Source: Thermodesulfobacteriota bacterium (GTDB lineage: Bacteria; Desulfobacterota; Desulfobacteria; Desulfobacterales; Desulfosudaceae). Taken from it: a stretch of DNA of 64,000 nucleotides. Numbering within the stretch: position 1 is the stretch's first letter; every line of letters starts with the position of its first letter. A program made the position numbers and the translations under genes. Location: assembly GCA_040753795.1 (NCBI GenBank), contig JBFMDX010000009.1, forward strand, positions 1 to 64,000, in the 5' to 3' direction. Positions 14,649 through 23,996 of the stretch are shown here, piece after piece. The notes below the pieces were generated by a model. The model did no database searches and was not told the origin of the DNA. It saw only the letters and a program-made list of their open reading frames with translations.

Positions 14649-15674
14649 ATGCTTCAAAAACGTTTTTTACGCCGCGGCCATGAAAAATTGTTCTGCTGGG
14701 TTTTGCTGATTCTGTCCGGCTTTTTTCTGATGATGCCTGGATCCGTTGATGCGGCATGAGGTTTTCCAACGCTGACCGTGAATGTCAGCCCGGCAGACGG
14801 CGGAACAGTTACCTCTCCTCAATTTGAAACACCGATAGCGGATTACCCGGCGAGTTTTACCTGCAGCGATACATATGACCTGACCGCCGTACCCAATGCG
14901 AATGAAGGGTATGAATTTGTCGACTGGGTCGTTAACGCGACAACACAAGCCGAAAACCCCTTAACGGTGGACGTTTCCGAAGAAGCGAAAGCCGTTACCG
15001 CTTTCTTCCGCATAGCGGGCGCCCCCAACACCGCCCCCACGGCGGACGCGGGTGATGATCAGGCCGTTGACGAAAACGCCTTTGTCATATTAAACGGCTC
15101 CGGTTCGTTTGATCCGAATAACGACATCCGGAAATATCAATGGCAGCAGACATCCGGGACCGCGGTTACCCTGTCCAACCCGGCCGCCATCAACCCGACG
15201 TTCTCCGCTCCGGCGGTTTCGGCTGCCGAAAGCCCGATCATACTGATCTTTCAACTGACCGTTGAAGACGTGCCCGGTGAAACCGGCACCGACACCGTCG
15301 CCATTACCGTTGCAGACTCCGGCAATGACCCGCCGGTCGCGAACGCGGGCCTCGACCAGACGGTTGAGGAAGGCGATCTGGTAACACTGGATGGTACCGG
15401 CACCGCTGACCCCAATGGAAGTAACGATATCAAGAGCTACACCTGGGAACAATTGGAAGGCAAGGAAGTCATCCTGTCCAACAATTTACTGGTTAACCCT
15501 ACCTTTACCGCTCCGGATGTGGAAGTGGTCGAAGATCCGTTATATCTGGTGTTCAAGCTGATCGTTGAGGATTTCGCGGGGTTGGAATCCGAGGACACCG
15601 TAACCATTAAAGTCAAGCGCGGCCCCATCGGGGGATCCAGCGCCGGATGTTTTATTACCGAAGCCGGCCGGTAA
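14649..15674 (+). CDS. Secreted InlB-type/PKD repeat protein with in-frame TGA after the signal peptide (possible pseudogene)
   Basis: The ATG at 14649 has a strong ribosome site (GAGGAGGA) and encodes a 36-residue signal peptide ending SVDAA. The next codon, at 14757-14759, is TGA, after which the same frame continues for 305 codons. The continuation matches the paralogue at 15712 domain for domain: a divergent InlB B-repeat-like domain (LTVNVSPADGGTVTSP), two PKD/Ig-like repeats beginning TADAGDDQAV and VANAGLDQTV, and a Cys-containing tail GGSSAGCFITEAGR. A GTG at 14778 could start a leaderless protein but has no ribosome site. Options are a recent nonsense mutation, TGA readthrough (selenocysteine or otherwise), or a sequencing error. 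The paralogue has Thr at the aligned position, not Cys, which argues against selenocysteine. Confidence 0.65.
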
Positions 15675-15711
15675 CCGTTTCATACCGGTATATTAACAGA
15701 GGAGGGGAGGT

Positions 15712-16731
15712 ATGGTTCATCATCATTTTCTGTACGGCCGCCTTGAAAAAGTTTCCGGTTGTGTCCTTCTTTTTCTGTTCTGCCTGTCGGTTATGCTGAC
15801 CGGTCCCGCGGCCGCGACCTGTTATGATAGACTGACCGTAAAGGTCGACCCGGCAGGAAGCGGTAATATCACTTCTCCTCAGTTTTCAACCAACCCGAGC
15901 GTTTATCCGTCGGTTTATGTGCTGCAAATCAGCTACACGCTTACGGCCGTGCCCAATCCCGGATATGAGTTTGTCAACTGGACCGTAAATTATACGACGG
16001 TAACCGGCAACCCGATAACCGTATCCGTGGCTGACGGGCAGAAGACAGTCCGGGCCAATTTTAAAATAGCGGAACCGAACATCCCGCCCGCGGCAGATGC
16101 CGGCGAAGACCAGTCCGTTATGGAAGATGCGCGGGTTTTTCTGGATGGTTCCGGATCGTTGGATCCGGATGACGGTATCATCGGCTACCACTGGCAGCAG
16201 ACCGATGGCCCCGTGGTCATCCTGTCGTCCCCAACCGTGGCCGCGCCTTTTTTTACCGCCCCGCAAATCCAGTCCGGGCAGCAAGCGCTTTTGTTCCAGC
16301 TCACCGTAACGGACACTGACGGAGCAACCGACACCGACACCGTTTCCATAACTGTTCAGGATACCGACGAGGATAATATTAACGATCCGCCTTCGGCCGA
16401 TGCCGGCGACGGTCAAACGGTCCACGAAAGAAGCCTGGTGACGCTGGACGGCTCCGGCTCCTTTGATCCGGATGACGGCATTCGGAGCTACAGCTGGCGG
16501 CAGACGGAAGGCCCTGTTGTAACCCTGTCCGACCCGTCCGCGGCCGGCCCGACGTTTACCGCACCCGGGATAAACGCTGATACCCTGACCATGGAATTCA
16601 CCTTGACCGTGGAGGATTTTTCCGGCGCAGTGGCGATGGATTCTGTTTATATTGTCGTCCAGAAAGGATCCGGTAGCGGTAGCGGGGGCGGGGGCGGGGG
16701 CGGATGCTTCATCTCCGGCACCGTGCGCTGA
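15712..16731 (+). CDS. Secreted InlB-type/PKD repeat protein with CFI C-terminal motif
   Basis: A 339-residue secreted protein. The signal peptide (about 1-34, ending GPAAA) is followed by a divergent InlB B-repeat-like domain (about 40-120), two PKD/Ig-like repeats (starting AADAGEDQSV and SADAGDGQTV, each with DGSGSxDPDDGI), a Gly/Ser linker and the tail GGGCFISGTVR. The GGGCFI sequence is the start of the CFI-type C-terminal signal common in deltaproteobacterial surface proteins, but it stops eight residues from the end instead of continuing as CFIATAAYGS. The ribosome site GGAGGGGAGG is strong. It is a tandem paralogue of the preceding gene, 37 bases downstream, and probably co-transcribed. 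It is likely a surface or extracellular adhesive protein. Confidence 0.85.
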   Translation: MVHHHFLYGRLEKVSGCVLLFLFCLSVMLTGPAAATCYDRLTVKVDPAGSGNITSPQFSTNPSVYPSVYVLQISYTLTAVPNPGYEFVNWTVNYTTVTGNPITVSVADGQKTVRANFKIAEPNIPPAADAGEDQSVMEDARVFLDGSGSLDPDDGIIGYHWQQTDGPVVILSSPTVAAPFFTAPQIQSGQQALLFQLTVTDTDGATDTDTVSITVQDTDEDNINDPPSADAGDGQTVHERSLVTLDGSGSFDPDDGIRSYSWRQTEGPVVTLSDPSAAGPTFTAPGINADTLTMEFTLTVEDFSGAVAMDSVYIVVQKGSGSGSGGGGGGGCFISGTVR

Positions 16732-18135: not shown

Positions 18136-20169
18136 CTACTTGGTGTCCGCGACGTAAACCCCGGCCCATCCCTCTTCCGGCGGATGAATTTCATAATGAT
18201 CGATGCGCCGGCTATACAGATCATGCAGCCGCCCCTGGTCCGGCGCCAGCTCCCGGCATGCCGCCAGCGCTGTCCGGGCCGCCGCCCACTCCTGCTTACG
18301 GAAACATCCCAGCAGCCGGTTGTGCCGCTCCTGAAGCCTGCTGAAGGCTTCACCTCTCCTTAACTCCGGCCCGCCCATCAGGGCAAAAACATGCATAGCC
18401 CTGGTTTTGCCTTTGACGGCGATCAGGTCCAGTTCGAGAAACGCCATATCCGCCGCGGCGGCCGCTGTCTCCGGGCCGACGACAATGCGCGTACCGTAAG
18501 TTTTGGATTGTCCCTCAAGCCGTGAGGCCAGGTTGACGGGGTCGCCCAGCACGGAATAGTCAAAACGCTGTTCGGCGCCGATGTTGCCCACCACGCACGG
18601 TCCGGTATTGATGCCGATGCCCACATCCAGCTTAGGAGCCGGGTTGCCGGCAGGCGCCGGTTCAGCGGCAAACTCATCGTTCAGGCGGCTAACGGCGGCT
18701 ATCATGTCCAGGGCGGCGGCGCAGGCCCGGGCCGCGTGGTCGGAAACCTCCAGGGGAGCGTTCCAGAAGGCCATGATGCAGTCGCCGATGAATTTGTCCA
18801 CGGTGCCGCCGTGTTTTAAAATAACGGCGGTCAGCGCCGAGAATAGCCGGTTCATGACATGAACCAGTCCCTGGGGATCTTCCGCGAAGCGCTCCGACAA
18901 GGCCGTGAACCCGCGGACATCGCAGAACATGAGGGTCATGTCCCGGATTTCGCCTCCCAGAACCAGGCGGGACCGGTCAGCGGCCAACTGGTCCACCAGA
19001 GCCGGGGCCAGGTAGCGGCTGAAGGCCAGCCGGATATGGCGGCGCGCGGCCTGCTCCGCGACAAAGGCGGTCCCGCCGGCACCGACGTAGATCATCAGCG
19101 CCGCCAGCACAAACAGCGACGGCGAAATCCAGGCCCGTCCATAACGCAGCAGTAAAAAGCTGGCGGCAGTCATAACGACAATGAGAGCGATCATGGTGAT
19201 GGTGGCGGACCGCGGCCGCCAGGGATGAAGGACCAGGCCCAGGAGGACGACAAACACGGCCAGCGCTGCCAGAACCATAAACCCGGGCGCGGGCCGGATA
19301 AAAAGCCCCAGCCGCAGATTGTCGAAAATTGTCGCCTGGACTTCCACACCGGCCATGACCGTGCCCGCGGACCGCGTATAGGGCGTGGCAAAGGCATCTG
19401 TTTCGCCTGCCCGCGTCTCCGGGGAGGCTTTGACCGCTTTGCCGACCAGGACCACCCGGTTTTTGAAAATACCGGGGGGGAGAAATTCCTCCGGCACCAG
19501 GGCCTGGTAATAAGAAACCGTGGGATAACTCCGGGCCGGGCCGACAAACTGCAGATAGTACGGCGATCCGGTAGGGATTGCCGGCAGCTTGACCGAAGGC
19601 TTCCGGCTGGCCGTCAGCCACAGATTCAGGGCCGTCACGGCAAATCCGTCCGGCCGGAGGGGAAGCGCTCTTAAAATGCCGTCGCGGTTCAGCGTGACGG
19701 CGGCCACACCCGGGACAGCCCCGGCAGCCAACAGCAGGTCCAGCGGGTCCGTCCGGATGATCTGGGTGACATGGGGCGTTTCTTCCAGAGTTTCATCGGC
19801 GGCCAGGACTACCGGCGGGGCTTTTTCGATGGCATCGGCCAGGAACCGGTCGGATTCCGGATTCGTGGGTTCGGCGAAAAGGATGTCCAGGGCGATCACG
19901 GCGGCGCCCGCCCGGGCCAGGGACTCGATCAGGGCACCGTGAATTTCTCTCGGCCAGGGCCACTGCCGCTCCAGTTCCCTGAAACTTGACTCATCAATGG
20001 CCACTATTATCACCGGCGAGTTTACAGGAACGGGGGCGGCGGTTGTGGAAAACCAGTCAAACAGCCGGTCGTCGATCATCCGATAGTCACGGGAAAGCGA
20101 AATCATCGCCAGCGTCATAAAGACCGCCAGCCCTAAAAGCCACGACCGCAGGTTTGGTTTCGTTATCAT
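18136..20169 (-). CDS. CHASE2-domain adenylate/guanylate cyclase
   Basis: A 677-residue membrane signalling enzyme that would make a cyclic nucleotide in response to an extracytoplasmic cue. Residues 1-25 form the first membrane span, about 30-290 a periplasmic CHASE2 sensor (VAIDESSFRELERQWPWPREIH, then LDILFAEPTNPESD), and about 295-372 contain three membrane spans. A class III cyclase domain at about 400-590 has metal-binding Asp417 (FCDVRGFT) and Asp463 (DKFIGDCIMAFW), and GDPVNLASRLEG supplies the purine-specific Asp and catalytic Asn/Arg, so it should be active and probably makes cAMP. A C-terminal 80-residue extension ends with a short helical region. The gene starts two bases after the stop of the FecR-TPR-barrel gene, indicating one operon. 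Confidence 0.92.
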   Translation of the reverse strand: MITKPNLRSWLLGLAVFMTLAMISLSRDYRMIDDRLFDWFSTTAAPVPVNSPVIIVAIDESSFRELERQWPWPREIHGALIESLARAGAAVIALDILFAEPTNPESDRFLADAIEKAPPVVLAADETLEETPHVTQIIRTDPLDLLLAAGAVPGVAAVTLNRDGILRALPLRPDGFAVTALNLWLTASRKPSVKLPAIPTGSPYYLQFVGPARSYPTVSYYQALVPEEFLPPGIFKNRVVLVGKAVKASPETRAGETDAFATPYTRSAGTVMAGVEVQATIFDNLRLGLFIRPAPGFMVLAALAVFVVLLGLVLHPWRPRSATITMIALIVVMTAASFLLLRYGRAWISPSLFVLAALMIYVGAGGTAFVAEQAARRHIRLAFSRYLAPALVDQLAADRSRLVLGGEIRDMTLMFCDVRGFTALSERFAEDPQGLVHVMNRLFSALTAVILKHGGTVDKFIGDCIMAFWNAPLEVSDHAARACAAALDMIAAVSRLNDEFAAEPAPAGNPAPKLDVGIGINTGPCVVGNIGAEQRFDYSVLGDPVNLASRLEGQSKTYGTRIVVGPETAAAAADMAFLELDLIAVKGKTRAMHVFALMGGPELRRGEAFSRLQERHNRLLGCFRKQEWAAARTALAACRELAPDQGRLHDLYSRRIDHYEIHPPEEGWAGVYVADTK

Positions 20170-20171
20170 TA

Positions 20172-23100
20172 TTAAAAAAGGACCTTACCGCTGACGGTGA
20201 CCACCCGGCCGGGACCGGGCATGTCCGTGGCCTGGTCAAAATTTGCGTCAAGCAGATTGGTGACGGAAAGGCCGATATCCAGATGCCGGTCAAGGGGCTG
20301 CCAGGAGAGGGCCAGGTCGGTGGTGACATAATCATCCAGGTCGGCGGTTCCGGCGACGACAGGCCGCTCACCGATAAAGCCGGCCGTCAGGCTGGCCCGG
20401 ATCCGGGAAGGGTGTACCCAGGCCAGACCGGCCTTCAACTCGCGTTCCGGGACCAGGGGCAGTTCCGGCCGGCCCGCGACGCCGCTGCTGCGGTTGGCGG
20501 TATCCCGGACCACTCCATCGGTGATGATGCCGATGCCGCCCCGGACCCAGAGGTTGACGGCCAGGCCCAGGGAGTTAATCCGGCCGTCATCCACCGCATA
20601 GGTTTCAAAGCTGTTCTCAGCGGCGCTGACGTCAAACCGGTGAATGTCCTGGCACCCCAGCCTCAGCGCCGTAAACAGATGGGAGAACCACTCCCTGTCC
20701 CAGCGGGCCTGATAGAACGTGCTCCGCCCGCCTTCGCCGACCCGGGTCATGTCATTGAACAGGCCCACCGTAGCCGTCGGCGCCAGGCTGGCCAGTCCGG
20801 GCAGGGCGAAATCCCTGCGGGCCATGAGCCGCAGCCAGTCCCTGTCATCCACCTGCCAGGCGATTCCGGCACGGGGCCCCATGCGGGTAAAGCGGGTGCC
20901 GGCGTCATCATCATAACGGTAAAAAAAGTTTCCGCCTTCGACCCAGAATGACTTGTCGATGCGCCACAAGGCGTTGACATGGCCATTGCCGTCCAGTCCG
21001 TGCTGCCGGGTTGTCTGCTTTTGCGGCAGCGGGTCGCCGAAAACAAACGGCAGGGACTGGTCCGCGCCGAAAATATACCCCACCCCCGGGTCGCGCTGGA
21101 AAAATTCCAGCCATCGCGCCCGGTTCTCGGTGCGGTCGGACGCCATATCCAGTCCATAACTGAAGTCCACCTCGTCCACCGTAAACAGGTGCTGGCAGGA
21201 AACGCCGAGAAAGTTGTTGTCGATTTCGGTCAGGGAGGCGGATTTGGTGTCCAGGACATCGGGGATGGTGCTGGTCAGGCTGGATTCGGATTCGCCGACC
21301 AGCAGCAAAGGCGTGCCCGGGTTTTCCGGGTCGGTCACGTCCGTCAGTCCGGCGGCATAAAGCAGCCGGGACGCATCCGGCCCGAAATTGCTGACCAGGG
21401 AATAATCAATCGCCGAAAGGCCGGTGCCGAACGGATCATCGTTGCGTATGGTTTTTTGCGCCCGCGTGGCCGTGACCAGGCTCATAAACACATTGCGGGC
21501 CCCGAAGGAATGGGAGTAGCCGATGGCGCCGACCGCCCCGTCAGCCTCCATATCATCGTCCCTGTCCGGGACCGATCGTGTTCCCGGCAGGCCGGTTTCG
21601 CTGTCCGAACCGCTGATGTTGACAATCACGTGATCATGAGGGGTCAAATTCATTCCGGCCATGCCCAGACCGTATGCCGGCCGGGTCTCGGCGTTTTCAA
21701 CGTCTCCGGGGAAAGCCGCCGCCTCGAAACTGAAGTAGTACGACATGGGCAGGCGGGACTGATCAAAGCCCTGGATATCACCGGCCAGGCTGTAGCCCGT
21801 ACCCTCGTCCGGGCGGCTGACCGTGCCGCCAAGCGAAAAATCCGTAAAGGGACGGCGGTAAAAATCCGTCTGCCGGTTGCGGGCGGAAACCGCCAGCGGT
21901 TCGAGCATCAGCCCCTGGTAAAGCGAGGAATAATCATCAAACTGAAGGGCCCGGTAAAAATGGCTGTCCGCCGAATAAGGGTCAAACGAAACCTCGTTGT
22001 AATAATCGGCCCAGTTGTTTAAAGACAAATCCATGAAGGCGCCGCCCAGGGTGTTCTTGCCCCCTCGGTTGGCGGCCAGGCCGGAAACGCCGACGCCTTC
22101 CACCCGGCGGTATTTTTCAATGGCCTGACGGGCATAGGCAATGGCGTCGTCCGACCGGTCCTGGTCCAGGGCCATGGTCGCTCCCACCAGGGGGATATCC
22201 GGATCATTGGGATCCAGGCGGGCGGCGTTGGCCAGGGCCTGCTCGGCCAGGGCCTGTTCGCCGTTCTGATAATAGGCGATAGCCAGCCCCAGGGAGCCGG
22301 TGGGCATGCCCGGGTTGACGGTGGTGGCCTTGAGGAAATCATCCCGGGCCGTGGCTATCCGCCCGGTCTGCAGATCCTGTCGGCCCTGGAGAATCATGGT
22401 GATTTCCCGGGAGGGTTCGATGGCGACCAGTTGCTGAAGGGTGTCGGCGGCTTCGCCCATGCGGTTCTGATCCAGCAGCAGCATGGCGTAGTTGCACAGA
22501 AAAACCATGTCCCGGGGAGCGATGGAAATGGCTTTCAAGAGGGCTTCTTCGGCCAGCTGCATTTCATCGATCTCATAATACGTCAGTCCCAGGGCGCCCC
22601 AGAGATCAGGATCGCTGGGGTTGAAGCCGAGGCCCTGCCGGAAGGTGCGGATGGCGGTCTCCTTGTCCATGCGGAAGTCACTCTGACAGGTGCCGAGAAC
22701 AAAAAAACCAAAAGCCGCTTCCGGATCAATGGCCAGGGTCCTGGCGGCGGCTTTTTCCGCCGCTTCCTCCCGGCCCAGCAGCAGGTCCAGCGCGCCTTCC
22801 ATGCCCGGGAAGCCCGCCTCATCGGGAAACTGAACGCTGTATTGCCGTGCCATGTCCGCGGCCAGGGGCAGATCGCCGGCAAAGGCGGTCAGCACCACCT
22901 GAAACTCCAAAAACCGGGGTTCGGCCCCGTATTCCGCCGTCATCTGTTTGATAAGGGCTTTGGCCGGATCCACATCCCGCGTGAGCAGCAGGACGCCGGC
23001 CCGGCCGATCATGGCCGCCAGTCGCCTGGAAGGGTCAAGCTTATCCTGGGCCGCGCCCAGCAGTTCATCGGCCCGATCCAGTTCCAGGTCGGCGATAGCC

Positions 23101-23996
23101 AGCAGGCCTCGGATCAGATTCGCCCGGGCGGACAGTCGGGCGTCGTTTTCAACCCGGGCCGCCGCAAGGCACTGCCGGACCCGATCGCTTTCATGGTCTT
23201 CACAGGCGAGTTCGGCCAGATCCAGCCACTGGACGGGAGTCCGCTTCTCGCCCTCCACAGCCTCCAGCTCCGCTTTGGCCTGGCGGCGGTCACGGGTTTT
23301 AAGATCGTTCAGGGGAATCAGCCCCAGGGCCTGGGCCAGGCTCATGTTGTAATAAATCAGTTCGCGGTCGTCCGGCGCCACCATGATCATTTTACTGGGG
23401 GCTTTACCGATCTCGGCCACGGCCATCTCTCCCCGGGAGACAGCCACCCGGCCGAACTCATTTTCCAGTGATACGGTTCCGTCGAGAACGACCAGAGTGG
23501 TCCGGCCGGCTTCATCCACCTGAAGGGACCAGTCGGTTCCCCGGATGGCGGCGGTAGCCGACGGCGTTTCAATGCTGACCCGCGAATCATCCCGGGCGGC
23601 TCTGGACCATGCCCCGCCCTGGTTGAGGCGGAAGATGCTGCCCCCGGGATGAACCTCCCCGGCCACGGCCTTGACGGTCAGCGAAGAGTTGCGGTGCACC
23701 CGGATCTGGGTCCGGTCGGCAAACAGCAGGGCCATTGCCCCCAGGGGACCGGTGCGCAGGCTGTCTCCGGTCAGCAGGTCCTGATCACTGTCGGCCTGAA
23801 TCCACTGGCTTTCCCGGACAAGGCAGATCTGGGCATCGCCACTGGCGCTGGCAATAACGCCCACCGCCGGCTGCTGACGGGGGACGGCAGCAAAACCGGG
23901 AATCGTGGCTGCCGATAAAATCATTAGTGCCAGTGACAGAACAGTGAAAAAGCCGGTGAGGAGAAAACAGGCCTGGGAATTTTTTTGATCGGCCAT
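20172..23996 (-). CDS. FecR-domain / TPR / C-terminal beta-barrel fusion protein
   Basis: A 1274-residue envelope protein. A signal peptide (about 1-37, cleavage near GFA-A) is followed by a FecR-like domain (about 60-185, with LLTGDSLRTGPLGAMALLFADRT, then SIETPSATAAIRGTDWSLQVDEAG), a helical linker, a long TPR array (about 270-650; EAAFGFFVLGTC, SDPDLWGALGLTYY and LDPNDPDIP are repeat pieces), and a 600-residue beta-rich region with alternating aromatic/polar strands, ending in Phe (VVTVSGKVLF) like outer-membrane barrels. The late region (LALSWQPLDRHLDIGLSVTNLLDANFDQ) resembles TonB-dependent receptor barrels, but no plug domain is seen. It is co-directional with, and two bases from, the CHASE2 cyclase gene, so it may relay an outer-membrane state to it. 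This role is inference. Confidence 0.85.
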   Translation of the reverse strand: MADQKNSQACFLLTGFFTVLSLALMILSAATIPGFAAVPRQQPAVGVIASASGDAQICLVRESQWIQADSDQDLLTGDSLRTGPLGAMALLFADRTQIRVHRNSSLTVKAVAGEVHPGGSIFRLNQGGAWSRAARDDSRVSIETPSATAAIRGTDWSLQVDEAGRTTLVVLDGTVSLENEFGRVAVSRGEMAVAEIGKAPSKMIMVAPDDRELIYYNMSLAQALGLIPLNDLKTRDRRQAKAELEAVEGEKRTPVQWLDLAELACEDHESDRVRQCLAAARVENDARLSARANLIRGLLAIADLELDRADELLGAAQDKLDPSRRLAAMIGRAGVLLLTRDVDPAKALIKQMTAEYGAEPRFLEFQVVLTAFAGDLPLAADMARQYSVQFPDEAGFPGMEGALDLLLGREEAAEKAAARTLAIDPEAAFGFFVLGTCQSDFRMDKETAIRTFRQGLGFNPSDPDLWGALGLTYYEIDEMQLAEEALLKAISIAPRDMVFLCNYAMLLLDQNRMGEAADTLQQLVAIEPSREITMILQGRQDLQTGRIATARDDFLKATTVNPGMPTGSLGLAIAYYQNGEQALAEQALANAARLDPNDPDIPLVGATMALDQDRSDDAIAYARQAIEKYRRVEGVGVSGLAANRGGKNTLGGAFMDLSLNNWADYYNEVSFDPYSADSHFYRALQFDDYSSLYQGLMLEPLAVSARNRQTDFYRRPFTDFSLGGTVSRPDEGTGYSLAGDIQGFDQSRLPMSYYFSFEAAAFPGDVENAETRPAYGLGMAGMNLTPHDHVIVNISGSDSETGLPGTRSVPDRDDDMEADGAVGAIGYSHSFGARNVFMSLVTATRAQKTIRNDDPFGTGLSAIDYSLVSNFGPDASRLLYAAGLTDVTDPENPGTPLLLVGESESSLTSTIPDVLDTKSASLTEIDNNFLGVSCQHLFTVDEVDFSYGLDMASDRTENRARWLEFFQRDPGVGYIFGADQSLPFVFGDPLPQKQTTRQHGLDGNGHVNALWRIDKSFWVEGGNFFYRYDDDAGTRFTRMGPRAGIAWQVDDRDWLRLMARRDFALPGLASLAPTATVGLFNDMTRVGEGGRSTFYQARWDREWFSHLFTALRLGCQDIHRFDVSAAENSFETYAVDDGRINSLGLAVNLWVRGGIGIITDGVVRDTANRSSGVAGRPELPLVPERELKAGLAWVHPSRIRASLTAGFIGERPVVAGTADLDDYVTTDLALSWQPLDRHLDIGLSVTNLLDANFDQATDMPGPGRVVTVSGKVLF

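Follow-up and report, generated by a model that had tools for sequence, protein, structure and literature searches.

An NsrA–CyaK-type pair of a predicted outer-membrane receptor and a CHASE2 nucleotide cyclase in a Thermodesulfobacteriota genome

Could two adjacent genes relay a signal from the outer membrane to a cyclic nucleotide, and would such a relay be a new kind of system? The question is raised by a stretch of 64,000 nucleotides (positions 1 to 64,000 of contig JBFMDX010000009.1, i.e., the whole stretch of DNA that was analysed, hereafter the window) from a Thermodesulfobacteriota genome, the host being probably a bacterium of the sulfate-reducing type without a plant host. According to the list of open reading frames (ORFs), two genes follow each other on the reverse strand: a receptor ORF of 1274 amino acids (23996..20172) and a cyclase ORF of 677 amino acids (20169..18136), with an intergenic gap of two bases (20170..20171) between the stop side of the former and the latter. 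An earlier note had described a single polypeptide joining FecR, a TPR array and an outer-membrane-type barrel, whose gene ends two bases before that of an intact CHASE2 cyclase, and had proposed that the pair forms a little-described signalling relay. The ORF coordinates agree with this spacing, and the architecture is borne out by the Pfam matches to FecR and TPR and by a 22-strand barrel model, both detailed below.

Homology gives the first part of the answer. The receptor aligns with the nsrA product of Sinorhizobium meliloti 1021 pSymB (identity 30.4%, query coverage 97%, E = 1e-127) and the cyclase with S. meliloti CyaK (46% identity over 603 aligned positions, E = 3e-157), while the two homologous genes of record CP140934.1 are named nsrA and cyaK. 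In both organisms, a FecR–TPR–barrel protein is directly followed by a CHASE2 class III cyclase, in the same order and with similar sizes, the homology extending essentially from end to end in each protein and the barrel being net acidic. The window receptor thus has FecR, TPR and barrel in one chain, in the NsrA order and with end-to-end homology, upstream of a CyaK ortholog. Judged from sequence, S. meliloti NsrA–CyaK is the closest characterised pair, from which the window pair differs by its moderate identity (~30% and 46%), its phylum and the presumed absence of a plant host. The S. meliloti system was reportedly the subject of Garnerone 2018 in J Bacteriol. According to later papers, NsrA is an outer-membrane receptor that, like CyaK, is needed for the cAMP response to Medicago signal 1 (PMC7529298, PMC10463352, PMC13001267); genetically, NsrA is required for this response, and the signal is an external protein (PMC7529298, PMC10463352). 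In a bioassay, purified ribosomal protein uL2 of either Medicago or E. coli serves as a signal, and the NsrA barrel (aa 600–1200) has outer loops rich in acidic residues (PMC7529298).

We therefore regard an NsrA–CyaK-type trans-envelope receptor signalling to cAMP as the probable nature of the window pair. The C-terminal barrel would lie in the outer membrane, with its acidic loops facing outside, and would bind a ligand from outside the cell, for which the analogy with NsrA makes a protein or peptide the most likely kind. From there, the signal would travel along the periplasmic TPR superhelix and the FecR domain and reach, at the inner membrane, the CHASE2 domain of the partner cyclase; the cAMP made by this enzyme would act on CRP-family regulators. 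That the function is the same in this genome, that NsrA directly contacts CHASE2, what class the ligand belongs to and that the output goes through CRP are all steps that we infer; a search of later papers on NsrA found no report of direct NsrA–CHASE2 contact. As the receptor shares only ~30% identity with NsrA and its host probably does not live in symbiosis with plants, it may bind an entirely different ligand. By this analogy, the outer-membrane-to-cAMP relay of the earlier note is most likely correct, since receptor-dependent cAMP signalling is strongly backed by homology to NsrA–CyaK and by the genetic requirement of NsrA for CyaK signalling, but it is not new: genetic work in S. meliloti has already demonstrated its core, and the single chain taken for a novelty, like the order of the genes, is what is usual for NsrA. 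The kind of system being known, what is new is the host lineage and the likely signal.

The N-terminal half of the receptor (20172..23996, reverse strand; identified from its ORF and its homology to nsrA) is consistent with a periplasmic location. Its sole hydrophobic stretch by hydropathy lies at the N-terminus (residues 7–39), so that the protein is expected to be exported, and a putative signal peptide spans residues ~1–37 (23886..23996), with a cleavage site (GFAA/VPR) placed by eye. The FecR domain, predicted to be periplasmic, occupies residues 79–175 (23472..23762; Pfam PF04773, E = 1.4e-12), and its motif A-A-I-R-G-T-D-W is invariant across 45 homologues. In the structure model of this part (pLDDT 84.3), a beta domain is followed by 23 TPR-type helices, i.e., a superhelix of ~11 repeats (residues ~234–633; 22098..23297) that Foldseek matches to TPR folds, Pfam recognising TPR families at roughly residues 444–630. 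No sigma factor, as in the FecR anti-sigma/ECF/FecA arrangement, occurs among the annotated neighbouring genes examined.

The C-terminal part does fold as a barrel in the structure prediction that the earlier note had proposed. Residues 600–1274, modelled with 44 homologues (pLDDT 83.9, pTM 0.81), show 22 long strands, whose connections are short turns at one end of the barrel and longer loops at the opposite end. The barrel itself covers residues 717–1274 (20175..21848, reverse strand), so that the C-terminal barrel announced for residues 650–1274 is recovered but its first strand starts at 717. The terminal Phe is kept in 84 of 85 aligned rows, the predicted outside loops hold 32 D/E against 9 K/R, and the net charge of the barrel is −30, for a family median of −33. 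Since the barrel of the window receptor has no Pfam match at E ≤ 1, its fold rests on the model; NCBIfam yields a weak TonB-hemin match only (residues 1184–1274, E = 7e-6). Among the matches listed, the best PDB hits of the barrel model are all TonB-dependent transporters or receptors (Foldseek E = 2e-23; VIA Z ~22), and the likeness to transporters such as FecA, BtuB and FhuA lies in this modelled 22-strand fold. In contrast to them, the window receptor has FecR and TPR modules in front and no detected plug: Pfam finds no plug domain (PF07715) in the window protein or in 45 scanned members, and the model secondary structure places a short, mainly helical linker (residues 634–716, ~83 aa; 21849..22097, reverse strand) at the plug position. 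A transporter-like barrel with its plug undetected offers a structural hypothesis on the passage of a signal across the outer membrane.

The same evidence bears on an alternative in which the barrel is a transporter or an export porin, the cyclase merely monitoring the traffic and reception being secondary. Its modelled fold is indeed that of transporters (e.g., siderophore TonB transporters), and the order TPR then barrel recalls the polysaccharide porins BcsC and PgaA, even if these match the receptor weakly and in the TPR region only (NCBIfam search). Against this, neither the window receptor nor its homologues give a plug match, the immediate neighbours that were identified (a BrkB-like gene downstream and a DUF763 gene upstream) include no gene for transport or for polysaccharide synthesis, and the literature treats S. 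meliloti NsrA as a receptor, so that we hold this alternative to be unlikely. The suggestion of the earlier note that the barrel transports is left unsupported, since no plug domain was detected.

The partner gene encodes a CyaK-like CHASE2 class III nucleotide cyclase (18136..20169, reverse strand; Pfam and homology to CyaK) that is intact, as had been claimed. It comprises, in order, an N-terminal CHASE2 periplasmic sensor domain (residues 21–311; 19237..20109; PF05226, E = 8e-41), a cluster of transmembrane helices located by hydropathy (residues ~287–372; 19054..19311) and a class III catalytic domain (residues 409–596; 18382..18945; PF00211 Guanylate_cyc, E = 9e-25), as in CyaK. All six catalytic positions (D417, K459, D463, S539, N546 and R550) are present, and they are invariant among 80 aligned cyclases, except for a Thr in place of S539 in one of them. 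Taking their roles from class III cyclases generally, we assume that D417 and D463 are the metal-binding aspartates, while K459 and S539 are presumably the Lys/Ser purine pair of the class IIIb type, the basis for product specificity; the predicted product would be cAMP rather than cGMP. Seven loci for cNMP-binding proteins exceed the cut-off in the genome, and cAMP therefore has possible receivers.

The cyclase is not alone in its genome: over the cut-off, there are five proteins with CHASE2 and eight cyclase domains of class III. One other CHASE2 cyclase (L129, contig C8) lies beside FecR and SpoIID-TPR genes, two more (L130 on C2, L131 on C12) beside genes for an M48 peptidase and SH3-domain proteins, and a further CHASE2 domain (L132 on C1) is fused to a Ser/Thr protein kinase and adjoins a PP2C phosphatase gene. 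On sequence grounds, the first three represent a barrel-less type of CHASE2 neighbourhood. As these neighbourhoods look cell-wall related, the window pair might be conceived as an envelope-integrity sensor, in which the FecR–TPR part would report barrel assembly, or peptidoglycan or envelope spacing, to CHASE2. Yet the paralogous cyclases are only 27–31% identical to that of the window and have no barrel partner, and NsrA responds to an added protein signal (PMC7529298), which makes this sensor slightly less credible still than the transporter.

Receptor signalling by the two products also presupposes that their genes belong together, and a survey of homologous loci, another check suggested beforehand, indicates that they do. 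In a tblastn search of plasmids, 83 records, nearly all of them rhizobial, matched the receptor query along 80% of its length or more. When the collection genome_contigs was searched with the single receptor sequence, no match was obtained, whereas a four-row alignment retrieved 358 stretches encoding relatives; the survey used the best 80 of them. Because these homologues were selected by similarity to the receptor alone, pairing was not built into the survey; a CHASE2 cyclase nevertheless lies directly downstream in 76 of these best 80 (truncated by the contig end in one case), mostly with a one-base overlap or a gap of 1–2 bases between the two genes. As for the four unpaired homologues, one (L089) has only 666 bases left before the contig end, and for each of the others (L048, L054 and L055) the genome contains another copy that is paired (L023, L091 and L028); such nsrA-like copies may serve distant cyclases, since S. 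meliloti NsrA also serves CyaD1/D2. The pairing spans Alphaproteobacteria and Thermodesulfobacteriota, and the observation cannot be due to chance, as conservation extends over the full length in over 80 genomes. That the genes are neighbours by accident, or co-transcribed yet uncoupled, is accordingly very improbable in view of this two-phylum survey, which already contradicts chance, and of NsrA–CyaK genetics, even though coupling and direct interaction are presumed for this particular pair.

The nearest relatives of the window proteins come from two Thermodesulfobacteriota MAGs (L014, L015) and from one labelled as alphaproteobacterial (L016), neighbours by which the window itself can be placed in Thermodesulfobacteriota. 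More distant FecR–TPR proteins of the same phylum (1173–1228 aa) adjoin CHASE2 cyclases in three loci (L134, in convergent order, L136 and L137), while a fourth (L135) has no CHASE2 cyclase within 3 kb and a fifth (L133) reaches the contig end. Among 58 related genomes searched, only one weak match, to the FecR region, was found besides the window's own, and the pair is thus patchy in its own order. Moreover, the genes flanking it in the window are not shared with the loci of its relatives, so that only the pair itself is conserved. One full NsrA–CyaK pair (L092) occurs in a record named Mycobacterium sp. KBS0706, an organism name that is probably wrong, as this pair groups beside alphaproteobacterial sequences and has an outer-membrane barrel.

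Related combinations of modules are known elsewhere. In a Campylobacterota cluster, compared here by description, the same modules stand beside a CHASE2 cyclase and the paper proposes a single signalling pathway, the difference being that the FecR outer-membrane protein and the TPR protein are encoded by separate genes, with a phosphodiesterase in addition. In magnetotactic bacteria, a gene for a CHASE2/adenylate cyclase comes after mtxA (PMC4439547), a likeness again drawn from description. A Burkholderia operon also places a FecR protein beside a CHASE2 sensor, but its LysM-FecR protein has no barrel and its output is a histidine kinase (PMC5192318).

What the window adds is a Thermodesulfobacteriota branch outside symbiosis, a barrel model resembling TonB transporters and an observation on PycTM-like neighbours. 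NsrA–CyaK is known for receiving a plant signal in a nodule symbiont; the occurrence of an orthologous pair in a member of Thermodesulfobacteriota that probably lives outside symbiosis suggests a design more general than symbiosis, and free-living relatives could serve the search for a general ligand class. Pushing this further, the whole family might be a general danger or contact sensor, whose acidic loops would catch basic proteins from lysed cells (such as free uL2) and whose cAMP would trigger a protective response, possibly via a PycTM-like effector in Rhizobiaceae, symbiosis being a special case; we offer this as a speculation with a low chance of being right.

In 43 of 84 nsrA–cyaK loci, the nearest upstream neighbour of nsrA is a divergently oriented gene of the PycTM family (PF18967, 44 bits; PADLOC PycTM), mostly in Rhizobiaceae and including S. 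meliloti 1021 (e.g., L010:5250-5795 and L013:5355-5894, both on the reverse strand). In this respect the window locus differs from that of S. meliloti, having no such divergent neighbour, and no PF18967 protein was found in its genome. The window cyclase domain matches PADLOC PycC models, but we rejected a reading of the window as a Pycsar defence system, as no PycTM was found in the genome. No literature linking Pycsar or DUF5706 to Sinorhizobium was found; a link between the NsrA family and a Pycsar-like effector is possible. Elsewhere in the window (14778-16731, forward strand), two neighbouring genes, whose products carry InlB-like and PKD domains, resemble tandem duplicates of a surface protein.
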